64,000 nt of DNA from a virus. A program made the translations under genes and the position numbers. The stretch's first letter is position 1; each line of letters begins with the position of its first letter. This document shows positions 8,249 to 45,557 of this stretch, piece after piece. The DNA is taken from IMG/VR virus record IMGVR_UViG_3300013005_000002, positions 1 through 64,000 of that record; one strand, given 5' to 3'. The notes beneath the pieces are model-generated. The model was not told where the DNA came from. It worked only from the letters and a program-made list of their open reading frames with translations, and searched no databases.

Positions 8249-8446
8249 TTAGTCATCAAACACACTATCTGTTGAATTTCTTTGAGGAAATTCAAGTTTT
8301 ACATCAGGCTGTAATATAGACATTACGGCTTCAATCCAAGCTAAAGATACTTGTAGTTCTCCAGGTACATCGTATGTTGTACCATTGCGATAGTTTTGTT
8401 TAGCCATTTCATTAATTTTATTTATTTGTTCATTAGTTATTTTCAT
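8249..8446 (-). CDS. Hypothetical protein, 65 aa
   Basis: The start is placed at ATG 8446 (MKITNEQINKINEM) rather than an in-frame upstream ATG, because the tiny gene upstream ends inside it by a 14-base overlap. It is helical at the N-terminus, with QVSLAWIEAVMSIL in the middle. It resembles small phage proteins that follow a helix-turn-helix-like layout, but I cannot assign a function. It is the last gene of the 8249-11035 chain. Confidence 0.65.
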   Translation of the reverse strand: MKITNEQINKINEMAKQNYRNGTTYDVPGELQVSLAWIEAVMSILQPDVKLEFPQRNSTDSVFDD

Positions 8447-8606
8447 AAAAAACGCTCCAATATATATTAAACGCAATCTGATAATCTAAAATAAGTTCAA
8501 GTGGATAAAAAACTTTAATAAATTCATATGATGTATTTAAATGTGAGTATAAAATAGGTTCATACATGTCATAAAAACCAAAATCAATATTTTTATATTT
8601 TCTCAT
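8433..8606 (-). CDS. MKKY-family tiny protein (MRKYKNI), 57 aa
   Basis: Tiny leftward gene beginning M-R-K-Y-K-N-I. A YP motif followed by a hydrophobic stretch (FYPLELILDY, about residues 33-42) recurs in several other members. It starts in an ATGA overlap with the previous tiny gene and ends in a 14-base overlap with the next. Member of a 23-gene family described in the findings; function unknown. Confidence 0.72.
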   Translation of the reverse strand: MRKYKNIDFGFYDMYEPILYSHLNTSYEFIKVFYPLELILDYQIAFNIYWSVFYENN

Positions 8607-8767
8607 GTAAAAAATCCAAAAAAATGATAAGTATAAAATTCAAAAAGTTTAAAATTTTGTGTTATTTTAAATTTCATTACATCATCCCAATATTTTTTAT
8701 ATAAAATATGTCTAAGATTAGGTGAAGAAATTTTATTAACAGTAAATATTATTTTATATTTTCTCAT
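8603..8767 (-). CDS. MKKY-family tiny protein (MRKYKII), 54 aa
   Basis: Begins M-R-K-Y-K-I-I and ends in a very aromatic tail (residues 42-53, including YTYHFFGFF). The start overlaps the upstream gene by 14 bases; there the leader, read in the shifted frame, supplies the upstream product's last codons. The stop forms ATGA with the next member. Function unknown. Confidence 0.72.
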   Translation of the reverse strand: MRKYKIIFTVNKISSPNLRHILYKKYWDDVMKFKITQNFKLFEFYTYHFFGFFT

Positions 8768-9197: not shown

Positions 9198-10010
9198 TTA
9201 ATTACGTTCATTAGAGATGACAGTTCCATTATTACTAATAGTAAAGCGACAATTAGTATTATCTGTTGTTATAAAATTTCCATTAGTTAATATCACAAAT
9301 CTTGTATTTCTACCTTCTATGTTTTCACTGAAACTTGCTAAATATTTTCCATTAGATAATTTTAAAAACACTTCGTTATACGCACCTTGGGCTCCACAAG
9401 GATCATAAATTTCAACAATGTTATTATATCCTTGTAAAATTGCTAGCTGGACTAGAATAGAATTCATTTGGGTTTGTAAGTAAGTAACATTACTTTGGAC
9501 AGACATATTGTTAGATTCCAAAGAGTTTACTTGTAGTTGTAATGCATTTAGTTGAACCTGAGTAATTGAGCTTTGATTGCTTAGACTTGTAAGTATTGTG
9601 TTAGTCATACTCAAATTATTTTGTAAATTATTAATAGACATTAATAAAAGAGACGTATTTTCTTCTGCTGCATTAATTTTACCTTCTAATACTGAAGTTA
9701 CTGACATTGTAGAAGTTATCTGAGAAGAAAGAGAGTCAAGTTGAGATTGTAAATCTACACTGTTGGCATTCAAAGCTAATAAACCAGAATTAATAGTGTC
9801 GATTCTTCCGTTTATATTAGATCCTTGTAAAATTAATGCTTCATCTAAAGCAACTAGTTGTGTCTGAGTGGACATATATTGTGACTCAAGTTGTGTTACT
9901 CTGGATTTTAAATCATCAATTTGATTTTGTAAGTAATTTGGATTAAATTTCTTCTGGCTACATCCCGATAAAATTATAATTATTGATACTAATAGAGATA
10001 TATTTTTCAT
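9198..10010 (-). CDS. Coiled-coil lipoprotein, 270 aa
   Basis: A signal peptide with lipobox ILSGC (Cys about residue 17) predicts a membrane-anchored, envelope-facing protein. Residues about 25-195 form a long heptad-rich coiled coil with Leu/Gln/Asn/Ser repeats (patterns such as LQSQLDSLSSQI and LQLQVNSLESN), like Lpp- or fibre-shaft-type trimers. The last 75 residues are a separate beta-rich globular domain containing two Cys and ending in ISNERN. Its ATG overlaps the stop of the subtilisin gene (ATGA), so the two are coupled. Possible roles are surface exclusion, or an envelope partner or substrate of the protease; both are inference. Confidence 0.75.
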   Translation of the reverse strand: MKNISLLVSIIIILSGCSQKKFNPNYLQNQIDDLKSRVTQLESQYMSTQTQLVALDEALILQGSNINGRIDTINSGLLALNANSVDLQSQLDSLSSQITSTMSVTSVLEGKINAAEENTSLLLMSINNLQNNLSMTNTILTSLSNQSSITQVQLNALQLQVNSLESNNMSVQSNVTYLQTQMNSILVQLAILQGYNNIVEIYDPCGAQGAYNEVFLKLSNGKYLASFSENIEGRNTRFVILTNGNFITTDNTNCRFTISNNGTVISNERN

Positions 10011-10672
10011 TTTTTACATTCCTCCTGTAATAATTCATGAGTTCTTACTGCAGTAGCTTGACTTGTCCCACTCATTGTAACATATCTTTTTTTAATCCCA
10101 AAGGATTTTATCTCTTTACCTTTTCTCCAAATCATATCATTTAATCCATAATTACTATATTTATCTTTATTAAGTAATCCTGAGCCGCTTCCTACTACAT
10201 CGATGTTCTTCATGTTGTAACTAGCTGGATAGTATGGAGTTTTTGTTATATCATTATTATGATTTCCTGCTGCCACTACTACTTTTGTTCTTTGTGTAAG
10301 AACAAGTAATTGTAGGAATTCCGCAATATAGAAATCATTTCCACCAGCCGAGAAGTTTACATATTCCATTCCTAATTCTCTTGCTTTTTTAAAGCATTCA
10401 GCACTTAAATTTACTGGTTCTTTTTTACTATTTGTTGTTAAAAATTTACAAGAATAAAGCTTGACTCTGTTACACACTGGTGTTTTTAAGTCTGGACCAT
10501 ATAGTACAATACCAGCAATGTGTGTTCCGTGGCCGTGGTCATCAGATAAATCTACTTTATCCTGAGATGCTAAATACTTAGCAATTTCAGGTACTTGCGA
10601 CGATACTCCAGTATCTACTACCATTACTTTAATGTCTTGTGCTAATAAGAGTGAAAATAATAAATAAACCAT
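10007..10672 (-). CDS. Compact subtilisin-like serine protease (S8), exported
   Basis: Product of 221 residues with a complete catalytic set: Asp20 in VVDTGV, His48 in HGHGTHIAG, oxyanion Asn in VVAAGN, and Ser204 in SGTSQATA. The first 12 residues (MVYLLFSLLLAQ) look like a short signal peptide. There is no propeptide, so it is about the minimal S8 domain. It is translationally coupled to the coiled-coil lipoprotein gene downstream. Phage-encoded subtilases are uncommon; the substrate could be a host envelope or co-encoded protein. The protease assignment is firm; the role is unknown. Confidence 0.9.
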   Translation of the reverse strand: MVYLLFSLLLAQDIKVMVVDTGVSSQVPEIAKYLASQDKVDLSDDHGHGTHIAGIVLYGPDLKTPVCNRVKLYSCKFLTTNSKKEPVNLSAECFKKARELGMEYVNFSAGGNDFYIAEFLQLLVLTQRTKVVVAAGNHNNDITKTPYYPASYNMKNIDVVGSGSGLLNKDKYSNYGLNDMIWRKGKEIKSFGIKKRYVTMSGTSQATAVRTHELLQEECKK

Positions 10673-10698: not shown

Positions 10699-10866
10699 TT
10701 ATGTCAAATATTTTAATTGTACTTCAGCAATTGTTTTAAGTCTTATAAAAAGAGGATAATAAATAGAATTACTAAGTTTTGATTCTAATTTAATTAAAAT
10801 TGTAATATTAAATTTATACCTTTCATAATTATTTAAATAAATTTTTAGATTTTGATATTTTTTCAT
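10699..10866 (-). CDS. MKKY-family tiny protein (MKKYQNL), 55 aa
   Basis: Starts M-K-K-Y-Q-N-L. It has the family's YYPL motif (residues 37-40) followed by a mixed hydrophobic helix (FIRLKTIAEVQL). The ATG lies one base after the stop of the preceding member. The next gene (subtilisin) begins 26 bases later. Function unknown. Confidence 0.72.
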   Translation of the reverse strand: MKKYQNLKIYLNNYERYKFNITILIKLESKLSNSIYYPLFIRLKTIAEVQLKYLT

Positions 10867-10867
10867 A

Positions 10868-11035
10868 TTAAATCATTCCGAGTAATTTATGTTTATAAAT
10901 AAAAAAGGATTGTTTTATGGTGGGATAAATTGATTCAAAAGCCCATAAATGAAGTTTACTTCTAAGTGAATATATTACTTGTTCATCTATATTAGAATAA
11001 ATCATTTTAGCGCCAATATTTTTATACTTTTTCAC
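10868..11035 (-). CDS. MKKY-family tiny protein (MKKYKNI, GTG start), 55 aa
   Basis: The GTG at 11035 overlaps the stop of the VWA-protein gene (GTGTGA). Encodes M-K-K-Y-K-N-I, with a YP motif near residues 37-38 and a basic, aromatic C-terminal stretch. The use of GTG while keeping K-K-Y shows that the protein start is what is conserved. Function unknown. Confidence 0.72.
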   Translation of the reverse strand: MKKYKNIGAKMIYSNIDEQVIYSLRSKLHLWAFESIYPTIKQSFFIYKHKLLGMI

Positions 11036-12183
11036 ACTAACCTCAATACTTTACCAAAAGTAGCTGGGGGTTCTTGATTACCTACTCCTACCCATAGAAA
11101 TGGTTTTTTTGGGTCTTCTGGCTTATCGGCACAGTCAAAATCCCCAAGATACAATATAGCGTCACAATTTAATCCCAAAGCTTTAGTTATAGCAGGAGAA
11201 TATGCCGTTCCACCCGCGCCAAATCTCTCCATAGGAATTTTATTCTTATTGTCAATTTTGACAACTTTTTGCACAACACAATCCGCATATATTAAATGTG
11301 CTTCACTCACATTTTTACTAATGTCAACAATCTCACTCATAAATGTATTAAACTGTTCATCGCTTATAGACCCAGATGTATCTATGCATACACCAAGTCT
11401 AAGCTGTCTATCTTTTTTCTTACCTGGCACATCAAATCCAAAGCGTCTATTGGATTTTCTTCTTGTACCTATTGTCTTTCTACTAGTTGCATTAGCTACA
11501 AAATTTCTTAGAATTTGTTTCCAGTTATGTTGTGACTCGGGTTTAAGTGATTCTATTGTCTTAATTAAATCAGATGGTACATTGCCGTGACTTGCTTTTA
11601 CTGCATCCTCTGCAATTCTTGACAATATAGCTTTTTCTAATTGTTGCTCAGATTCTGATAATTCACCGTCTTGTTCATTTTTAGAATGGTCATCAACCGT
11701 TGACATACCAGCTACTTTTTGTTTACAAGAATCAGGAGCTTGTTCTATTAAATCATAATAATACTGCGCAGTTTGAAATCCTAATACATTATTATTTTTA
11801 ATAGCTTTTTTAAAAGTTTCTAAGGTTACAATGTTCTCACCAAGTACTTCTATCCCTTTAATGTATTGGTTAATACAACAATCCGTTGCGATATTCCAAT
11901 TATGCATTTCTGCTTTGTTATTAATATCATAGAATGATTTCTTTGTGTGTTTAAACAATTGATGTAATATTTCATGCTTCAGTACCTTAGTTACATTATC
12001 AGGTCCAATCTTTTTTAAGAATTCAGGATTAAACCCTAAAACGCTAGTATTATTTTGGATTGTTGCGTATGCAGTTTCTACTTTACTATCGTAAATAATT
12101 TTAGACATTAAAGTAAAATGAGCATAGAATGGCTCATCTTTTAATAAATTATAGATAGCATTTTCTAAACTGTACACAGACAT
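11032..12183 (-). CDS. VWA-like protein with N-terminal putative metallopeptidase domain
   Basis: Product of 383 residues. The N-terminal half has HEILH (H70, E71, H74), the motif of the DUF2201-type putative metallopeptidase domain. A linker of about 60 polar residues follows. The C-terminal half is a VWA-like domain whose MIDAS motif reads DTSGS, with a later GGTAYSP and the second acidic motif LGDFDC. Such proteins pair with MoxR AAA+ ATPases, and a MoxR gene lies 4 bases upstream here. Together they probably form an ATP-driven chaperone or remodelling machine with an unknown phage-specific client. Confidence 0.85.
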   Translation of the reverse strand: MSVYSLENAIYNLLKDEPFYAHFTLMSKIIYDSKVETAYATIQNNTSVLGFNPEFLKKIGPDNVTKVLKHEILHQLFKHTKKSFYDINNKAEMHNWNIATDCCINQYIKGIEVLGENIVTLETFKKAIKNNNVLGFQTAQYYYDLIEQAPDSCKQKVAGMSTVDDHSKNEQDGELSESEQQLEKAILSRIAEDAVKASHGNVPSDLIKTIESLKPESQHNWKQILRNFVANATSRKTIGTRRKSNRRFGFDVPGKKKDRQLRLGVCIDTSGSISDEQFNTFMSEIVDISKNVSEAHLIYADCVVQKVVKIDNKNKIPMERFGAGGTAYSPAITKALGLNCDAILYLGDFDCADKPEDPKKPFLWVGVGNQEPPATFGKVLRLV

Positions 12184-13928: not shown

Positions 13929-14141
13929 TTAAGTTAAATTTTCTATTAAGTAATTAGTAAAATAATAAGCTTTTCTATAATCAATGTATACCGAATGAAA
14001 ACCAGAGTCTATATCATAATTAATTTTATCTAAAAATTGACCCATTTGATAATTAAGATGGTCACTAAGAAATAAAGATTCAATAGGCCAATTAACTACA
14101 TGTGTTTTTTGTTCAAACTTTAAATTACTGTACTTTTTCAC
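13929..14141 (-). CDS. MKKY-family tiny protein (MKKYSNL, GTG start), 70 aa
   Basis: The longest member. The GTG at 14141 overlaps the upstream stop (GTGA) and gives M-K-K-Y-S-N-L-K-F. Here the conserved Tyr is TAC, whereas the others use TAT. The C-terminus is aromatic (HSVYIDYRKAYYFTNYLI). Function unknown. Confidence 0.75.
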   Translation of the reverse strand: MKKYSNLKFEQKTHVVNWPIESLFLSDHLNYQMGQFLDKINYDIDSGFHSVYIDYRKAYYFTNYLIENLT

Positions 14142-20368: not shown

Positions 20369-21112
20369 ATGAAGATAATGTCTAGCACGTGTAAATGTTG
20401 CAAACAAACCAAAACAAAGATAGCTAAAAAAGAAGGAAATAAATTTAATTATGTTGATGAAAATAATACACTCTGGAAAGGTAGGTATTGCCCTTCCTGT
20501 AAAAAAGAATATACAGCAAGTTACAATAAACTAAAGCCCCGGCCATCCGCCTACAAAAAATCAACTAAACCTCTTTTGGATAAAACTTGTACTGTTTGCA
20601 AAACAGAGTTTAAAACAAAAAATCCAAGACAAGGACTATGTTCTAAGGAATGCAGAAGACAAGTTAAAAATTTAAAACGTAGAAAACCTCTATCTCCTAA
20701 AAAAGTAAAAGAACCAAAAATTGTACATCCTAAAAATTGTCTGACATGCAGTAAAAGCTTTTTACCTAAAAACTCACGAGGTAACTATTGTCAAAAAAAA
20801 TGTATGCCTAGTGAAATTAAGTATCGCAAGAAAAGTAATCATACCGCTGCTGCCAAAAAACTAAGAAAACAACGAAAGCTTGTGCAAAAGTTTAAACAAC
20901 CTATATCAAAGAAGTTTAAAAAAGAAATATTAGAAATATACGCTAGTAAACCTGAAGGATACGAGATAGACCACATTGTGCCTATAAACCATCCTGACGT
21001 ATGTGGATTACATGTGCCTTGGAATTTAAAAGTTTTAGCTAAAGAAGATAATTTAAAAAAGTCTAATAAGTTTGATGGTACTAATGAAAATAATAATTGG
21101 GCTATCCTATAA
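20369..21112 (+). CDS. HNH endonuclease with zinc-finger repeats
   Basis: Product of 247 residues. Three Cys-rich segments (CKCCKQ with CPSC, CTVC with CSKEC, CLTC with CQKKC) look like successive zinc ribbons. A basic linker follows, and the C-terminus is an HNH core: EIDHIVPINHPDVCGLHVPWNL, then NLKKSNKFD. TGGAG precedes the ATG at 20369. It is the only gene of its short rightward unit, bounded by leftward genes on both sides, as expected of a mobile homing-type endonuclease. Its 3' end overlaps a tiny leftward gene by 11 bases. Confidence 0.85.
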   Translation: MKIMSSTCKCCKQTKTKIAKKEGNKFNYVDENNTLWKGRYCPSCKKEYTASYNKLKPRPSAYKKSTKPLLDKTCTVCKTEFKTKNPRQGLCSKECRRQVKNLKRRKPLSPKKVKEPKIVHPKNCLTCSKSFLPKNSRGNYCQKKCMPSEIKYRKKSNHTAAAKKLRKQRKLVQKFKQPISKKFKKEILEIYASKPEGYEIDHIVPINHPDVCGLHVPWNLKVLAKEDNLKKSNKFDGTNENNNWAIL

Positions 21113-21269
21113 ATAGTACACTATTCTTCATTACTCTCCAATACAACTTGCTATACAGGGATAAGGATAGTCCTGTATAAATGTTAGACCTTAAATCAAT
21201 TGGCATTGAAAGCACGTTAATTGTTCTATCTAAATTAAACACTATTACTACCCTATTATATTTTCTCAT
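21102..21269 (-). CDS. MKKY-family tiny protein (MRKYNRV), 55 aa
   Basis: Last member of the main array. Begins M-R-K-Y-N-R-V and ends in a hydrophobic, aromatic helix (LSLSLYSKLYWRVMKN). The start is in a TAATG overlap with the preceding member. Its 3' end overlaps the convergent HNH gene by 11 bases. Function unknown. Confidence 0.7.
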   Translation of the reverse strand: MRKYNRVVIVFNLDRTINVLSMPIDLRSNIYTGLSLSLYSKLYWRVMKNSVLFIG

Positions 21270-21418
21270 TAATAATACACTTTCCGCATAATAGCTAGAT
21301 ACACCATAAAATACTGAGGACCACTTTCTGCAATTATAGTTTCTACGCTTGGTGACAATAATCCTATGTATTTAAATTTATAAACATTAGTTACTTCTAT
21401 GTTTTTATACTTTCTCAT
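21269..21418 (-). CDS. MKKY-family tiny protein (MRKYKNI), 49 aa
   Basis: C-terminal half is a clear paralog of the product of 21569-21721: both contain PQYFMV followed by LA-hydrophobic-MRKV and two terminal aromatic residues. The start overlaps the upstream stop by 14 bases and the end forms TAATG. Function unknown. Confidence 0.75.
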   Translation of the reverse strand: MRKYKNIEVTNVYKFKYIGLLSPSVETIIAESGPQYFMVYLAIMRKVYY

Positions 21419-21569
21419 AAAGAGAATCTCTCATATTTTTAAACAACTGATTATAGTCACTAAAGTCTAACAAAGAAAATCTTCTTTCTGTTATAAGAAG
21501 TATATTATAACATATATCGTTACTCATTTGAAAAGATAAATTCATTTCAATTATTTTATATTTCTTCAT
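21405..21569 (-). CDS. MKKY-family tiny protein (MKKYKII), 54 aa
   Basis: Begins M-K-K-Y-K-I-I. Two hydrophobic strands (ICYNILLIT and FSLLDF) are followed by a polar helix. Its last codons read Y-E-K-V-stop, created by the next member's start site in a shifted frame. The start is in a TAATG overlap. Function unknown. Confidence 0.7.
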   Translation of the reverse strand: MKKYKIIEMNLSFQMSNDICYNILLITERRFSLLDFSDYNQLFKNMRDSLYEKV

Positions 21570-21721
21570 TAATAAAACACTTTTCTCATCACAGCAAGTC
21601 TCACCATAAAATACTGAGGTAAAGCCCCTGCAATTAAAGTTTGAAGATTAGGCGCTATTTGTTGATACATTCTATTTCTACCATTAATATTGTTTATTAC
21701 TATTCTATTATACTTCTTCAT
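21569..21721 (-). CDS. MKKY-family tiny protein (MKKYNRI), 50 aa
   Basis: Begins M-K-K-Y-N-R-I. The C-terminal 24 residues (around ALPQYFMVRLAVMRKVFY) are shared with the product of 21269-21418, showing duplication within the array; the N-terminal middle differs. ATGA overlap at the start, TAATG at the end. Confidence 0.75.
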   Translation of the reverse strand: MKKYNRIVINNINGRNRMYQQIAPNLQTLIAGALPQYFMVRLAVMRKVFY

Positions 21722-21861
21722 ACCTTACCTATATACTTTGCATTCATATATAATGCCAAAAGTGGATAATAGTCACATACAGTCAAATCAAGTTCTCGGG
21801 CTAAGCGGTCATACGCTATCATTGGAATAAAATCTATACTTACTAAATTATATTTTTTCAT
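21718..21861 (-). CDS. MKKY-family tiny protein (MKKYNLV), 47 aa
   Basis: The shortest member. Carries the YYPL motif (residues 31-34) followed by a hydrophobic helix (LALYMNAKYIGK). The start overlaps the upstream stop by 14 bases and the stop overlaps the next ATG (ATGA). Function unknown. Confidence 0.72.
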   Translation of the reverse strand: MKKYNLVSIDFIPMIAYDRLARELDLTVCDYYPLLALYMNAKYIGKV

Positions 21862-22018
21862 CATATCCCATTACCTTACTTATACTTAACATAGCAAAGA
21901 AATAAAACATTGCTATTCTAAGATTCCATACTGGCTTTAATTCTACAAGAGTATTATATTGTATAGAACGACGTAAGCTTTCTTTAATACGTAAATCTAA
22001 ATTGTTATATTTTTTCAT
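21848..22018 (-). CDS. MKKY-family tiny protein (MKKYNNL), 56 aa
   Basis: Begins M-K-K-Y-N-N-L. It contains KPVWNLRIAMFYFFAML (about residues 28-44), which could be a membrane-interacting helix. Ends Y-D-E-K-I-stop across a 14-base overlap with the next member. Confidence 0.72.
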   Translation of the reverse strand: MKKYNNLDLRIKESLRRSIQYNTLVELKPVWNLRIAMFYFFAMLSISKVMGYDEKI

Positions 22019-22021
22019 GTT

Positions 22022-22171
22022 TTACCAAAATAAAGGATACATTGGAATAAATATAAAACCACTTATAATTGTATGAATACGTAGTTCAGTTGCGTAATTT
22101 ACTTCATACTTGAGTCCTTCTATTTTATTTAGAGTTAACCCCTTTATTTTTATGCATTTATATTTTTTCAT
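22022..22171 (-). CDS. MKKY-family tiny protein, duplicate A (MKKYKCI), 49 aa
   Basis: Nearly a copy of the product of 22332-22487: both share M-K-K-Y, CIK, GLTLNKIE, KYEV and the pattern Y-x-T-E-L-x-I-H over the first 33 residues, then diverge in a hydrophobic tail (here FIFIPMYPLFW). Clear recent duplication. The ATG forms ATGA with the upstream stop. Confidence 0.78.
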   Translation of the reverse strand: MKKYKCIKIKGLTLNKIEGLKYEVNYATELRIHTIISGFIFIPMYPLFW

Positions 22172-22335
22172 ATATTTTCTTTTAAAGCATAACACACTCT
22201 AGCATAAACCTGAAATCCAAAAGGTAAAAGAATTTCTTTAGACAGTTTATAATAAAATAAAACTTCAATTTGCGTTTTAAATACAGAGTTAAGATGACTG
22301 GATACTCCAGTATGTATATTTTTATATTTTCTCAT
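22168..22335 (-). CDS. MKKY-family tiny protein (MRKYKNI), 55 aa
   Basis: Lies between the two duplicate members. Begins M-R-K-Y-K-N-I. A strand-like TQIEVLFYYKL is followed by LLPFGFQVYARVCYAL, matching the family's strand, Pro, hydrophobic helix order. ATGA overlaps on both sides. Confidence 0.74.
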   Translation of the reverse strand: MRKYKNIHTGVSSHLNSVFKTQIEVLFYYKLSKEILLPFGFQVYARVCYALKENI

Positions 22336-22487
22336 ATTTCACCAAAAAGAAACCACACAGGAAGATATGGAAACTGTCCTAGTATTATGTGGATATACAA
22401 TTCAGTTTTATAATCTACCTCATACTTATAGCTTTCTATTTTATTAAGAGTTAGTCCCCTCATTTTTATGCACTCATACTTCTTCAT
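22332..22487 (-). CDS. MKKY-family tiny protein, duplicate B (MKKYECI), 51 aa
   Basis: Paralog of 22022-22171 (see there). Its tail is FPYLPVWFLFGEI. The start overlaps the previous stop by 14 bases, so the previous product ends Y-E-E-V. Function unknown. Confidence 0.78.
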   Translation of the reverse strand: MKKYECIKMRGLTLNKIESYKYEVDYKTELYIHIILGQFPYLPVWFLFGEI

Positions 22488-22635
22488 AATATAATGCTTC
22501 ATTTCTTAATTTACACATTATTTGCCAAAATCCTTGGTCAAAGACCACATCTATTTGATGCGTAGTTTCAAAATTAAAACTCCGACATTGATATAAATTT
22601 TTATAGTACAGGTATATTCTATTATATTTCTTCAT
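22474..22635 (-). CDS. MKKY-family tiny protein (MKKYNRI), 53 aa
   Basis: Begins M-K-K-Y-N-R-I. Contains THQIDVVFDQGFWQIMCKL (residues 25-43), similar in pattern to other members. The start lies in a 14-base overlap with the preceding member. Function unknown. Confidence 0.72.
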   Translation of the reverse strand: MKKYNRIYLYYKNLYQCRSFNFETTHQIDVVFDQGFWQIMCKLRNEALYYEEV

Positions 22636-22792
22636 AAATATAATGTTTCACTTTAAATTTTATTTGATGAGCAGTATGATGTGCACCTGTCGATAAAGCA
22701 GGAAATTTTATATATTTTGTCTGGTTTAAAAACAGTACACTTAACTGGTATCTTAAGCTAAACCATAAACTATAATTATGATATTTTCTCAT
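22622..22792 (-). CDS. MKKY-family tiny protein (MRKYHNY), 56 aa, first of array
   Basis: First of eleven consecutive members (22792 down to 21102). The ATG at 22792 overlaps the stop of the PDZ protein gene as ATGA. Begins M-R-K-Y-H-N-Y; the C-terminus is His-rich (GAHHTAHQIKFKVKHY) and ends Y-E-E-I. Function unknown. Confidence 0.72.
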   Translation of the reverse strand: MRKYHNYSLWFSLRYQLSVLFLNQTKYIKFPALSTGAHHTAHQIKFKVKHYIYEEI

Positions 22793-23202
22793 TTAACACA
22801 TATCACTTCTCTAATTAAAACTATAATCCAAGTTTTATCTCCCCTAGTTACTGTAATCTCTACTTTAGTACCAGGCTTACCCCTGATCTCTTCATTAGAG
22901 TGTATAACATCCCCGGCTTTAAGTCCAGCTTTAAATGCTGGGTATCCTTCATATACAGATTCAATTAAGGGAAATCCAGAAAGACCTATACCACCAAATG
23001 TATCCACACAGGCTTCACCTGGATTATCTCCTTTAGGAATAATAATGGTTTCTTCAAGTCCCCCTTTTGGATGATCGCCGCTACCTAATTCCTGCAAATC
23101 AACGGTGATTGATTTAGGCTGCTGAGGGGAGATGAAAATAAGCGACACCAATCCAAAATGGATAAGAGTACTAGCTATAAAAAATTTTATATCTCTAAAC
23201 AT
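22789..23202 (-). CDS. Membrane-anchored PDZ-domain protein, 137 aa
   Basis: Residues about 8-25 form a single span (FIASTLIHFGLVSLIFI) followed by PQQPKSITVDL, reminiscent of the TonB N-terminal anchor. A Gly-rich linker follows. Residues about 62-135 look like a PDZ domain: GIGLSGFPLIESVYEGYPAFKAGL split by the carboxylate loop, then GDVIHSNEEIRG and a final strand. It would bind protein C-termini at the inner membrane. Phage proteins of this type are unusual; a link to envelope protease control is inference. Confidence 0.75.
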   Translation of the reverse strand: MFRDIKFFIASTLIHFGLVSLIFISPQQPKSITVDLQELGSGDHPKGGLEETIIIPKGDNPGEACVDTFGGIGLSGFPLIESVYEGYPAFKAGLKAGDVIHSNEEIRGKPGTKVEITVTRGDKTWIIVLIREVICVK

Positions 23203-23368
23203 TTTTTAATACACCACTGGATATCTTATAATTAAATACTAACGAAATAAATAGTTTGGATATTTTATTCTCCACCATGTACCCAGCATTTTTTCTAATA
23301 TAGCCGAGGTAGTGATAATACACTTGGTCATATACTTGACCTATGTGTACTGGTTTATATTTTTTCAA
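23195..23368 (-). CDS. MKKY-family tiny protein (TTG start, LKKYKPV), 57 aa
   Basis: The TTG at 23368 overlaps the upstream stop (TTGA) and encodes initiator Met then K-K-Y-K-P-V. The middle is Tyr-rich (VYDQVYYHYLGYIRK). The 3' end overlaps the PDZ gene start by 8 bases. Keeping the family N-terminus with a rare start codon supports its coding nature. Confidence 0.7.
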   Translation of the reverse strand: MKKYKPVHIGQVYDQVYYHYLGYIRKNAGYMVENKISKLFISLVFNYKISSGVLKNV

Positions 23369-23820
23369 GCTTTAGTCCAGTATTTATCTTGGATAGTTTT
23401 TCCACATACATTACCAAAGATTCCTGGCTTTACAAACTCAATACCATCTAAAGACGACACAAGTTCATCGGTAATTTCAGGATAGATTTTGCACATACGT
23501 TGTATGGCAAAATTATACACTTGCTTCTGATACCATAATCCAAGTTTGTGTAGTCCTGTGTATTTAGTAAAAGGTTTAGTAACGTGCCAATCAAAATTAT
23601 AAAGAAGAGGCCACTTTATCCAAACATAGCCTGGGTACAATAGTGAGTGTAACCCGCCATCCCAGAAATATGGATGGTCGCGGAATGTGCCATACTTTTC
23701 TTTTCCATGAGTACCAATTCTACCATAGGTTTTCCATGTACGCATAATATAACTAATAGCAATATCTAGCTTATCTCCATGTTCTTCAAACCATGTATCA
23801 CCCCACTGATGACTTGGCAT
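23365..23820 (-). CDS. Conserved phage protein, 151 aa
   Basis: Trp- and Tyr-rich protein of 151 residues. The opening SHQWGDTWFEEHG and the segment GKEKYGTFRDHPYFWDGGLHSL remind me of a hypothetical protein seen in several large phages. No motif for an enzyme is apparent to me. It overlaps the upstream gene by 23 bases. Confidence 0.72.
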   Translation of the reverse strand: MPSHQWGDTWFEEHGDKLDIAISYIMRTWKTYGRIGTHGKEKYGTFRDHPYFWDGGLHSLLYPGYVWIKWPLLYNFDWHVTKPFTKYTGLHKLGLWYQKQVYNFAIQRMCKIYPEITDELVSSLDGIEFVKPGIFGNVCGKTIQDKYWTKA

Positions 23821-24735: not shown

Positions 24736-24945
24736 TTAGGACAAGTCAATATATAATACACTATTTATAAAAAAAGTGCTATCTAGAATATTATCCCATA
24801 GCCACCCCGGATTTTTTAAATCTTCAGGAGAATCTTTAGTCCATCTAGTAATGTATTCACTTATCTCATATCTTGGATCATCCATAAAATATTCTTTTAA
24901 TATTTCAAAGCCTTTATTAAATTCTACATTACGATATTTTCTCAT
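24736..24945 (-). CDS. MKKY-family tiny protein (MRKYRNV), 69 aa
   Basis: Second of two consecutive members. Begins M-R-K-Y-R-N-V. Acidic middle, then PGWLWDNILDSTFFINSVLY, the Pro/Gly plus hydrophobic helix seen in relatives. ATGA overlap with the upstream member. Function unknown. Confidence 0.72.
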   Translation of the reverse strand: MRKYRNVEFNKGFEILKEYFMDDPRYEISEYITRWTKDSPEDLKNPGWLWDNILDSTFFINSVLYIDLS

Positions 24946-25121
24946 AAAAATAGATTATTATTCCAAAGCAATCGGTTTAATAGAAGTTCTTCTATTAATC
25001 TTACTTCAAGAAAATTAATACTTTTTAATGTTGTGTACATATGATCACTAATGTAGCGTCTATATTGTGTATGAATTTCAAATACTTCGTATACAAGCAC
25101 TGTTTTTTTATACTTTCTCAT
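24942..25121 (-). CDS. MKKY-family tiny protein (MRKYKKT), 59 aa, promoter-proximal
   Basis: The first gene of the 25121-to-21102 leftward unit. Begins M-R-K-Y-K-K-T and ends in a Leu-rich helix (FLEVRLIEELLLNRLL). A -10 box ends 6 bases before its ATG, so the mRNA would be leaderless. Function unknown. Confidence 0.72.
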   Translation of the reverse strand: MRKYKKTVLVYEVFEIHTQYRRYISDHMYTTLKSINFLEVRLIEELLLNRLLWNNNLFL

Positions 25122-44985: not shown

Positions 44986-45400
44986 ACATCCTACTCTTTC
45001 TATCAGTTCTCACACCTAAGTCAAGGTGAACCCACGTCGTGACCTTACCTTTAGTAAAATCAGGATTTTCCAACCACAGCTCATATTTCTTTAGTACCTC
45101 AGGCTTCCCTTTCAGTATCCCCGCTATACTCTGCTTACTATCATCCAAAATGTCCACAGCTAAGCACTGTGTATGCAAGCTCTTCTTAGCAGCATTTGCA
45201 ATCTGCGCATTTACAGCACTTGGTCTAAATCCTGAACTCACCTTAAGCTTAGTTGTATCAATCCCGCACTCAGCCAAACAAGCATTTACAGCTTTAAGCA
45301 ACTTTGCTGCATTATCCAAATATTCTTGCGTAAGTTCCTTATTTTTTTCTCTGTCTGGATATGCTCCGCTTGCTGTCAAATATTCACGTAAATCAATCAT
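44975..45400 (-). CDS. M15-type L-alanyl-D-glutamate/D-Ala peptidase endolysin
   Basis: Product of 141 residues. VSSGFRPSAVNAQI, then SLHTQCLAVDI (zinc His and Asp) and TTWVHLDLG (third zinc ligand His) make the Peptidase_M15 core with nothing extra. Leftward, overlapping the convergent HNH gene by 11 bases. It would cut peptidoglycan peptides at lysis. Unusually it sits alone among tiny leftward genes, away from the rightward structural block, so its expression timing may be controlled separately. Confidence 0.85.
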   Translation of the reverse strand: MIDLREYLTASGAYPDREKNKELTQEYLDNAAKLLKAVNACLAECGIDTTKLKVSSGFRPSAVNAQIANAAKKSLHTQCLAVDILDDSKQSIAGILKGKPEVLKKYELWLENPDFTKGKVTTWVHLDLGVRTDRKSRMFNP

Positions 45401-45557
45401 AAATTTCCTCTATTGATGTTATAATATGGTGTATTTCTTGTCTAGTACTAATTATTTTCCAAAATAACCATCCATAATTAGTGCGATAAGTCATGTCAGA
45501 AAGAAATCTAGAAATTCTAAACGTGTCTCTACTCAATACGTTATTATATTTTTTCAT
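45393..45557 (-). CDS. MKKY-family tiny protein (MKKYNNV), 54 aa
   Basis: Begins M-K-K-Y-N-N-V. GWLFWKIISTRQEIHHI follows a Tyr/Asn turn, fitting the family pattern. Its 3' end overlaps the endolysin start by 8 bases, so endolysin translation is coupled to it. Confidence 0.72.
   Translation of the reverse strand: MKKYNNVLSRDTFRISRFLSDMTYRTNYGWLFWKIISTRQEIHHIITSIEEIYD

Follow-up and report, generated by a model that had tools for sequence, protein, structure and literature searches.

Tiny genes of an environmental phage share a translated, stop-bearing start segment and vary as cassettes between strains

The window analyzed here comprises bases 1-64,000 of the 79,790-bp IMG/VR record IMGVR_UViG_3300013005_000002, a tailed phage seen only in environmental DNA, and it carries a family of 23 tiny leftward genes, eleven of them in one tandem array. 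A sequence-only reading had described these as open reading frames (ORFs) of 47-70 codons whose products begin M-[K/R]-[K/R]-Y, with ATG, GTG and TTG start codons; we recovered all 23 at the same positions, 20 starting with ATG, two with GTG and one with TTG. Searching the whole record for ORFs of at least 47 codons starting [ATG/GTG/TTG]-[KR]-[KR]-[Y], we found 23 matches on the minus strand and none on the plus strand, against a chance expectation for both strands together of 0.15 on average and 1 at most in 60 second-order Markov simulations. The remaining 15.8 kb of the record (64,001-79,790) hold no additional member; the MKKY at 73,660 (ORF at 73,541) is an internal Met in the end of a larger conserved gene of 274 amino acids (aa), 73541-74365. 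Two strain contigs allowed comparison: L013, which is 14.1 kb long and 81-96% identical to the record over most of its length, and L010, which is 98% identical. The genes are as follows (overlaps and gaps in nucleotides, nt).

8433-8606, minus strand: m8433, 57 aa, MRKYKNIDF; overlaps m8603 by 4 nt
8603-8767, minus strand: m8603, 54 aa, MRKYKIIFT; upstream ORF ends on the TAA in the motif, a 14-nt overlap
10699-10866, minus strand: m10699, 55 aa, MKKYQNLKI; same start with another body at this place in L013
10868-11035, minus strand: m10868, 55 aa, GTG start; overlaps conserved gene 11032-12183 by 4 nt; in L013 its orthologue differs chiefly just past the motif
13929-14141, minus strand: m13929, 70 aa, GTG start; the sole member with TAC at Tyr4
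21102-22792, minus strand: array of 11 tandem tiny genes, with junctions that are 14-, 4- or 1-nt overlaps or, once, a 3-nt gap
21102-21269, minus strand: m21102, 55 aa, MRKYNRVVI; orthologue L013:4679-4840, 51% identity
21269-21418, minus strand: m21269, 49 aa; recent paralogue of m21569; not in L013
21405-21569, minus strand: m21405, 54 aa, MKKYKIIEM; same start joined to another body at L013:4524
21569-21721, minus strand: m21569, 50 aa; orthologue L013:4372-4524
21718-21861, minus strand: m21718, 47 aa; orthologue L013:4232-4375
21848-22018, minus strand: m21848, 56 aa; orthologue L013:4075-4245
22022-22171, minus strand: m22022, 49 aa; paralogue of m22332; orthologue L013:3922-4071
22172-22792, minus strand: four-gene block missing in L013, the junction running from one motif copy to another
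22168-22335, minus strand: m22168, 55 aa; not in L013
22332-22487, minus strand: m22332, 51 aa; not in L013
22474-22635, minus strand: m22474, 53 aa; not in L013
22622-22792, minus strand: m22622, 56 aa; not in L013; 4-nt overlap with 22789-23202
23195-23368, minus strand: m23195, 57 aa, TTG start; 4-nt overlap with 23365-23820
24736-24945, minus strand: m24736, 69 aa; L013 orthologue starts MRKCYNVEF and so has lost Tyr4
24942-25121, minus strand: m24942, 59 aa
34758-34922, minus strand: m34758, 54 aa, MKRY; precisely missing from L010, with flanks 98% identical
45393-45557, minus strand: m45393, 54 aa
45554-45736, minus strand: m45554, 60 aa
46159-46332, minus strand: m46159, 57 aa; near its start no stop of an upstream ORF was found

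Alignment of the products extended the constant segment beyond the four residues first noted, to residue 9: M-[K/R]-K-Y-[K/N/Q]-x-[I/V/L]-x-[hydrophobic], with a hydrophobic residue at position 7 in 22/23 members and at position 9 in 17/23. The bodies past this module are 38-61 residues long, and among them only the pairs 22022/22332 and 21269/21569 beat every shuffled score, the other pairs lying near the shuffled distribution. Because only these two recent duplicate pairs are demonstrably related past residue 9, the family is one constant start on many bodies, not 23 recognizable variants of one protein; descent of all bodies from a single ancestor through very deep divergence is still conceivable. 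A later pattern of a strand, a YP-like motif and a hydrophobic helix had also been proposed. YP does occur in 7 bodies where 2.6 are expected (p = 0.009, for a motif chosen post hoc), but the pattern is weak overall and does not establish a common fold. The C-terminal residue is I or V in 10/23 products (p = 8e-4), an excess that the overlapping start sequence, RTATGA or RTATAA, dictates in part.

Past the ninth codon, codon usage scored best in the predicted frame for 22 of the 23 genes. For seven close orthologue pairs with L013, we counted 19 synonymous and 25 nonsynonymous changes, whereas neutrality predicts 8.3 synonymous ones (p = 2e-4); frame-neutral substitution, which the sequence-only reading had named as evidence that would count against its proposal, is thus not what the strains show. 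The ratio of nonsynonymous to synonymous change (pN/pS) in these pairs was 0.31 versus 0.086 in nine neighboring genes (p = 6e-5), indicating that the tiny proteins are constrained yet change several times faster than their neighbors. Three divergent orthologue pairs gave a pN/pS of 0.66, and the paralogues 22022/22332 a pN of 0.24 and a pS of 0.64 (p = 0.002). Changes in m10868 fall at residues 8-17, directly past the constant part, and those in m13929 cluster at residues 14-30 (pN/pS 1.11), where local diversification or gene conversion relative to the L013 orthologue may have acted. The strain and paralogue comparisons thus support the proposed selection at the protein level. The argument first offered for it, that Lys and Arg interchange with different codons, is weaker than claimed, because Arg2/3 is always AGA (11/11; p 0.004-0.024) and all K/R changes are A/G changes only. 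Taken together, codon usage and substitution patterns support the view that the 23 ORFs are a real, undescribed and expressed-looking small-protein family under protein-level selection.

The DNA of the shared start, ATGARRAARTATAA, carries TGA at bases 2-4; where codon 5 starts with AA, as in 16/23 members, bases 12-14 read TAA. The stop codons of ATGARRAARTATAA thus occupy both other reading frames. An upstream ORF ends inside the motif at 17/23 starts: the TGA is its stop in 11 cases, giving a 4-nt overlap, and bases 12-14 hold the stop in 6, giving a 14-nt overlap. Another two upstream stops lie on TAATG (1-nt overlap) and two at most 4 nt before the start, for a total of 21/23 starts with the stop placed from 3 nt ahead of the gene to 14 nt inside it. 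By comparison, 4- or 14-nt overlaps are found at 2 of 29 larger core genes (p = 8e-7). This stop function accounts for the codon choice within the motif: Arg is never CGN because CGN would destroy the TGA, and the bias to TAT at Tyr4 (22/23; p 0.005-0.08), which like the Arg codons is more uniform than codon usage predicts, is explained by the motif stops, the sole TAC member using TGA. What it does not explain is why members relying on the TGA alone also conserve K3, Y4 and hydrophobic residues at positions 7 and 9, so that a role at the level of the protein (or another at the level of the RNA) must be added.

Published work shows that 4- and 1-nt overlaps couple translation through termination-reinitiation (PMC6728339, PMC10666635). 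A Shine-Dalgarno match of at least 4 nt is present for 6/23 tiny genes versus 22/29 core genes (p = 6e-4). We rejected unusually unstructured start RNA as a feature of the family, since predicted folding at the tiny-gene starts did not differ from that of core genes, and a promoter scan found sites no more frequently than in shuffled sequence.

Comparison of the strains showed that cassettes are gained, lost and swapped, with breakpoints at the motif. L013 holds ten relatives at full length plus the start of one more, along with the m24736 orthologue starting MRKC, and it lacks the four-gene block of the array. L010 lacks exactly m34758, and the genes flanking that position are coupled either way, through ATGA when the cassette is present and through TAATG when it is missing. 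Bodies are exchanged as well: at m21405 (L013:4524) and m10699 (L013:14013), L013 matches the record through the upstream sequence and the motif and switches to another body after it, and at m21405 one L013 gene replaces two. The contigs are metagenomic, but assembly error is an unlikely source of these differences because the motif copies have too few identical bases in common for an assembler to collapse them.

Beyond these strains the family appears to be lineage-specific and recent on the scale of the clade, as the array is absent from sister phages and from all scanned contigs except L013. Scanning 2.9 million viral contigs in IMG/VR for three successive starts and for pairs returned the family only in L013, and none of 30 related records (reached via portal and reductase; many 70-85 kb) has the array, which answers the call for a search of related phages. 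We also looked for start-sharing families in ten related phages and found none; an MRGF signal in relative G004 and an MN[QKE]AVN signal in relative G002 were rejected as parallel families because they are low-complexity tandem repeats (G004:C1:1-750, MRGF[ML].VR..; G002:C1:38611-38820, MN[QKE]AVN..). MKKY ORFs in 18 further relatives were likewise set aside as scattered singles, several being internal Mets of an apparent homologue of 73541-74365. Three successive starts occurred nine times in 84,980 prokaryote genomes, none belonging to the family (repeats, signal peptides and chance), and a tblastn search of 50,697 phage records with two members found no relative. No member had a consistent or significant match among PHROGs, Pfam or PADLOC profiles and a literature search gave analogues only, in agreement with the sequence-only reading, which knew of no described family.

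Two other arrangements came up during these searches. Another phage type (L024:5062-5475, L026:5448-5861 and L029:9371-9784, minus strand) has two adjacent genes, of 53 and 83 aa, whose products share their first ten residues, MKKYIHINQH, and differ in their bodies; the 83-aa gene has relatives in Pelagibacter, Methylophilales and Agrobacterium phages, and none was found for the 53-aa gene. Alphaproteobacteria MAG_CA1 (L020:1381-3092, plus strand) has an array of five ORFs of 38-40 residues with signal-peptide-like N termini (MKKYLA...ALAVAGGVVA) and Cys-containing ends, unusual in its own right and unrelated to the tiny-gene family.

The record is probably a complete genome, given a 123-bp direct repeat at its end, and encodes recognizable terminase, portal, major head protein and ribonucleotide reductase. 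Many metagenomic phages carry relatives of the terminase, portal, head and reductase genes; about 25 contigs have a portal at 50-60% identity, and the top match of this portal among isolates is a phage of Silvanigrella at 29% identity. Two of the genes lying next to tiny genes are listed here.

22789-23202, minus strand: PDZ-like small gene adjoining the array, between tiny genes, with a hydrophobic N terminus; weak PDZ match (Pfam PF17820/PF13180, E 2e-5, under the curated cut-off)
10007-10672, minus strand: subtilase-family (S8) protease gene, immediately downstream of m10868 and m10699

The PDZ-like product is probably membrane-anchored, and we found no protease domain in it. Together with the C-terminal I/V excess it might point to a partner shared by the tiny proteins, those C termini being partly forced by the overlaps.

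We consider it somewhat more probable than its opposite that the tiny genes form a library of small accessory proteins, specific to this lineage and coupled in translation, perhaps aimed at changing host targets. Each cassette consists of a constant nine-residue start module fused to a largely unrelated, fast-evolving body. An upstream ORF arriving in either other frame would be terminated within 14 nt of the module start, and the terminating ribosome could reinitiate at the ATG without a Shine-Dalgarno site. Because the module would both end the upstream ORF and permit reinitiation, a cassette could be inserted behind almost any gene of an operon without harm to that gene. The gain, loss and swapping of cassettes between strains have their breakpoints at the start module. 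The constant N terminus may serve as a docking or folding segment common to all members. Accessory proteins directed at the host would fit the quick turnover, the small size, the coupling in operons and the lack of such genes in sister phages; that they act on changing host targets, in host takeover or counter-defence, we put forward only tentatively. In its fullest form, which we think unlikely, the proposal would have one 14-nt sequence act as restart site, two-frame terminator, homology anchor for body swaps and docking peptide, making a frame-independent plug-in gene system.

Several observations weigh against this interpretation. The upstream ORFs of some members (e.g., m8603 and m45554) are not independently validated genes, and in E. 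coli gene pairs removal of the Shine-Dalgarno site usually cut reinitiation strongly (PMC6728339). The motif need not cause the exchange, because breakpoints close to gene starts are the ones expected to survive if selection acts only to keep genes intact, and the paralogue pair 21269/21569 has no significant synonymous excess (p = 0.21). The proposed check by structure prediction was carried through for two members with family alignments, and AlphaFold2 gave no usable fold (pLDDT 58 and 63); with neither a fold nor a family match, function is suggested by context only.

The shared start could instead be mainly a nucleic-acid element, recognized by a regulator of the phage or the host, the ribosome or the recombination machinery and captured by bodies that are unrelated ORFan genes, which we hold to be possible though doubtful. 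The uniformity of the AGA and TAT codons invites this explanation, as do the unrelated bodies, the breakpoints at the motif and the repeats known at the starts of many small genes in Cluster K mycobacteriophages (PMC3203893). The codon bias, however, is explained by the stop codons in the motif, and residues 7 and 9 stay hydrophobic while first and third codon bases vary. Moreover, K3-Y4 and the hydrophobic pattern persist where only the TGA at bases 2-4 is used, and in the whole record we found the motif at the start of no ORF outside the tiny-gene class.

Products translated in coupled order might also be subunits of one or a few heteromeric assemblies, with the common N-terminal strand as the interface. 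Tight overlaps are enriched among genes for complex subunits (PMC10666635), and a constant N-terminal segment with variable bodies, a PDZ-like and probably membrane-anchored protein in the operon and the C-terminal I/V excess would suit such an arrangement. Yet the members are spread over 38 kb and vary between strains to the extent of a missing four-gene block, unlike a fixed complex, the C-terminal preference is partly set by the overlapping start and the PDZ match lies under the Pfam cut-off, and we judge this improbable. Neutral or selfish duplication, in which the array would be tandem duplicates in decay that make nothing useful, would account for rapid turnover, unrelated bodies and absence from all sister phages examined. 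It is very hard to reconcile with 23 intact ORFs, coding-frame codon usage in 22/23 and a significant synonymous excess, and was already disfavored by pN/pS.

Of all phage genes the small ones are understood least; they are rich in host-directed proteins but, being usually unrelated singletons, do not lend themselves to study as a family. Here one start module marks the whole set, which makes it possible to find its members, compare them between strains and test them as a group. A functional start/stop module would also show how a dense operon can gain genes with its neighbors unbroken, and if the plug-in system exists as outlined above, the phage assembles and refreshes a library of small effectors inside its own operons.

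Parts of this organization resemble known systems. The 4- and 1-nt overlaps, at 11 and 2 of the 23 starts, are those of termination-reinitiation at ATGA and TAATG (PMC6728339, PMC10666635); unlike those published pairs, the genes described here repeat a 14-nt cassette start with stops in both other frames, include a 14-nt overlap class and mostly lack a Shine-Dalgarno site. Integron cassettes are separated by attC sites, whereas here neighbors overlap or abut and leave no room for attC; an integrase was not searched for. Diversity-generating retroelements copy a template repeat into a variable repeat with adenine-directed changes, by means of a reverse transcriptase; the comparison here covered the kind of variation, in which whole bodies are exchanged and ordinary substitutions occur. 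Small genes that vary between strains and have no relatives in databases, some of them acting on the host, also form clusters in large lytic phages such as T4. We know of no single N-terminal segment common to unrelated bodies among such T4-type accessory genes.

Polymorphic toxins likewise generate diversity by joining a constant N-terminal part to alternative C-terminal bodies (PMC3482391), but the products here are about 55 residues long, with no large trafficking domain and no toxin/immunity pairing seen. The nearest published parallel we found is the start-associated sequences (SAS/ESAS) of Cluster K mycobacteriophages, oriented elements that recur in a phage genome at the starts of many genes of different phamilies, are conserved across subclusters and are of unknown function (PMC3203893). 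Both cases place one oriented element at many unrelated gene starts, here 23 on one strand. The SAS consensus, GGGATAGGAGCCC, lies immediately upstream of start codons and is untranslated (PMC3203893); sequence columns upstream of our 23 starts are not conserved, conservation beginning at the start codon, and the element is translated, tied to a conserved peptide and holds the stops of upstream genes. What we describe is a start module, translated and carrying stops, on a library of small proteins that varies between strains, distinct from SAS.

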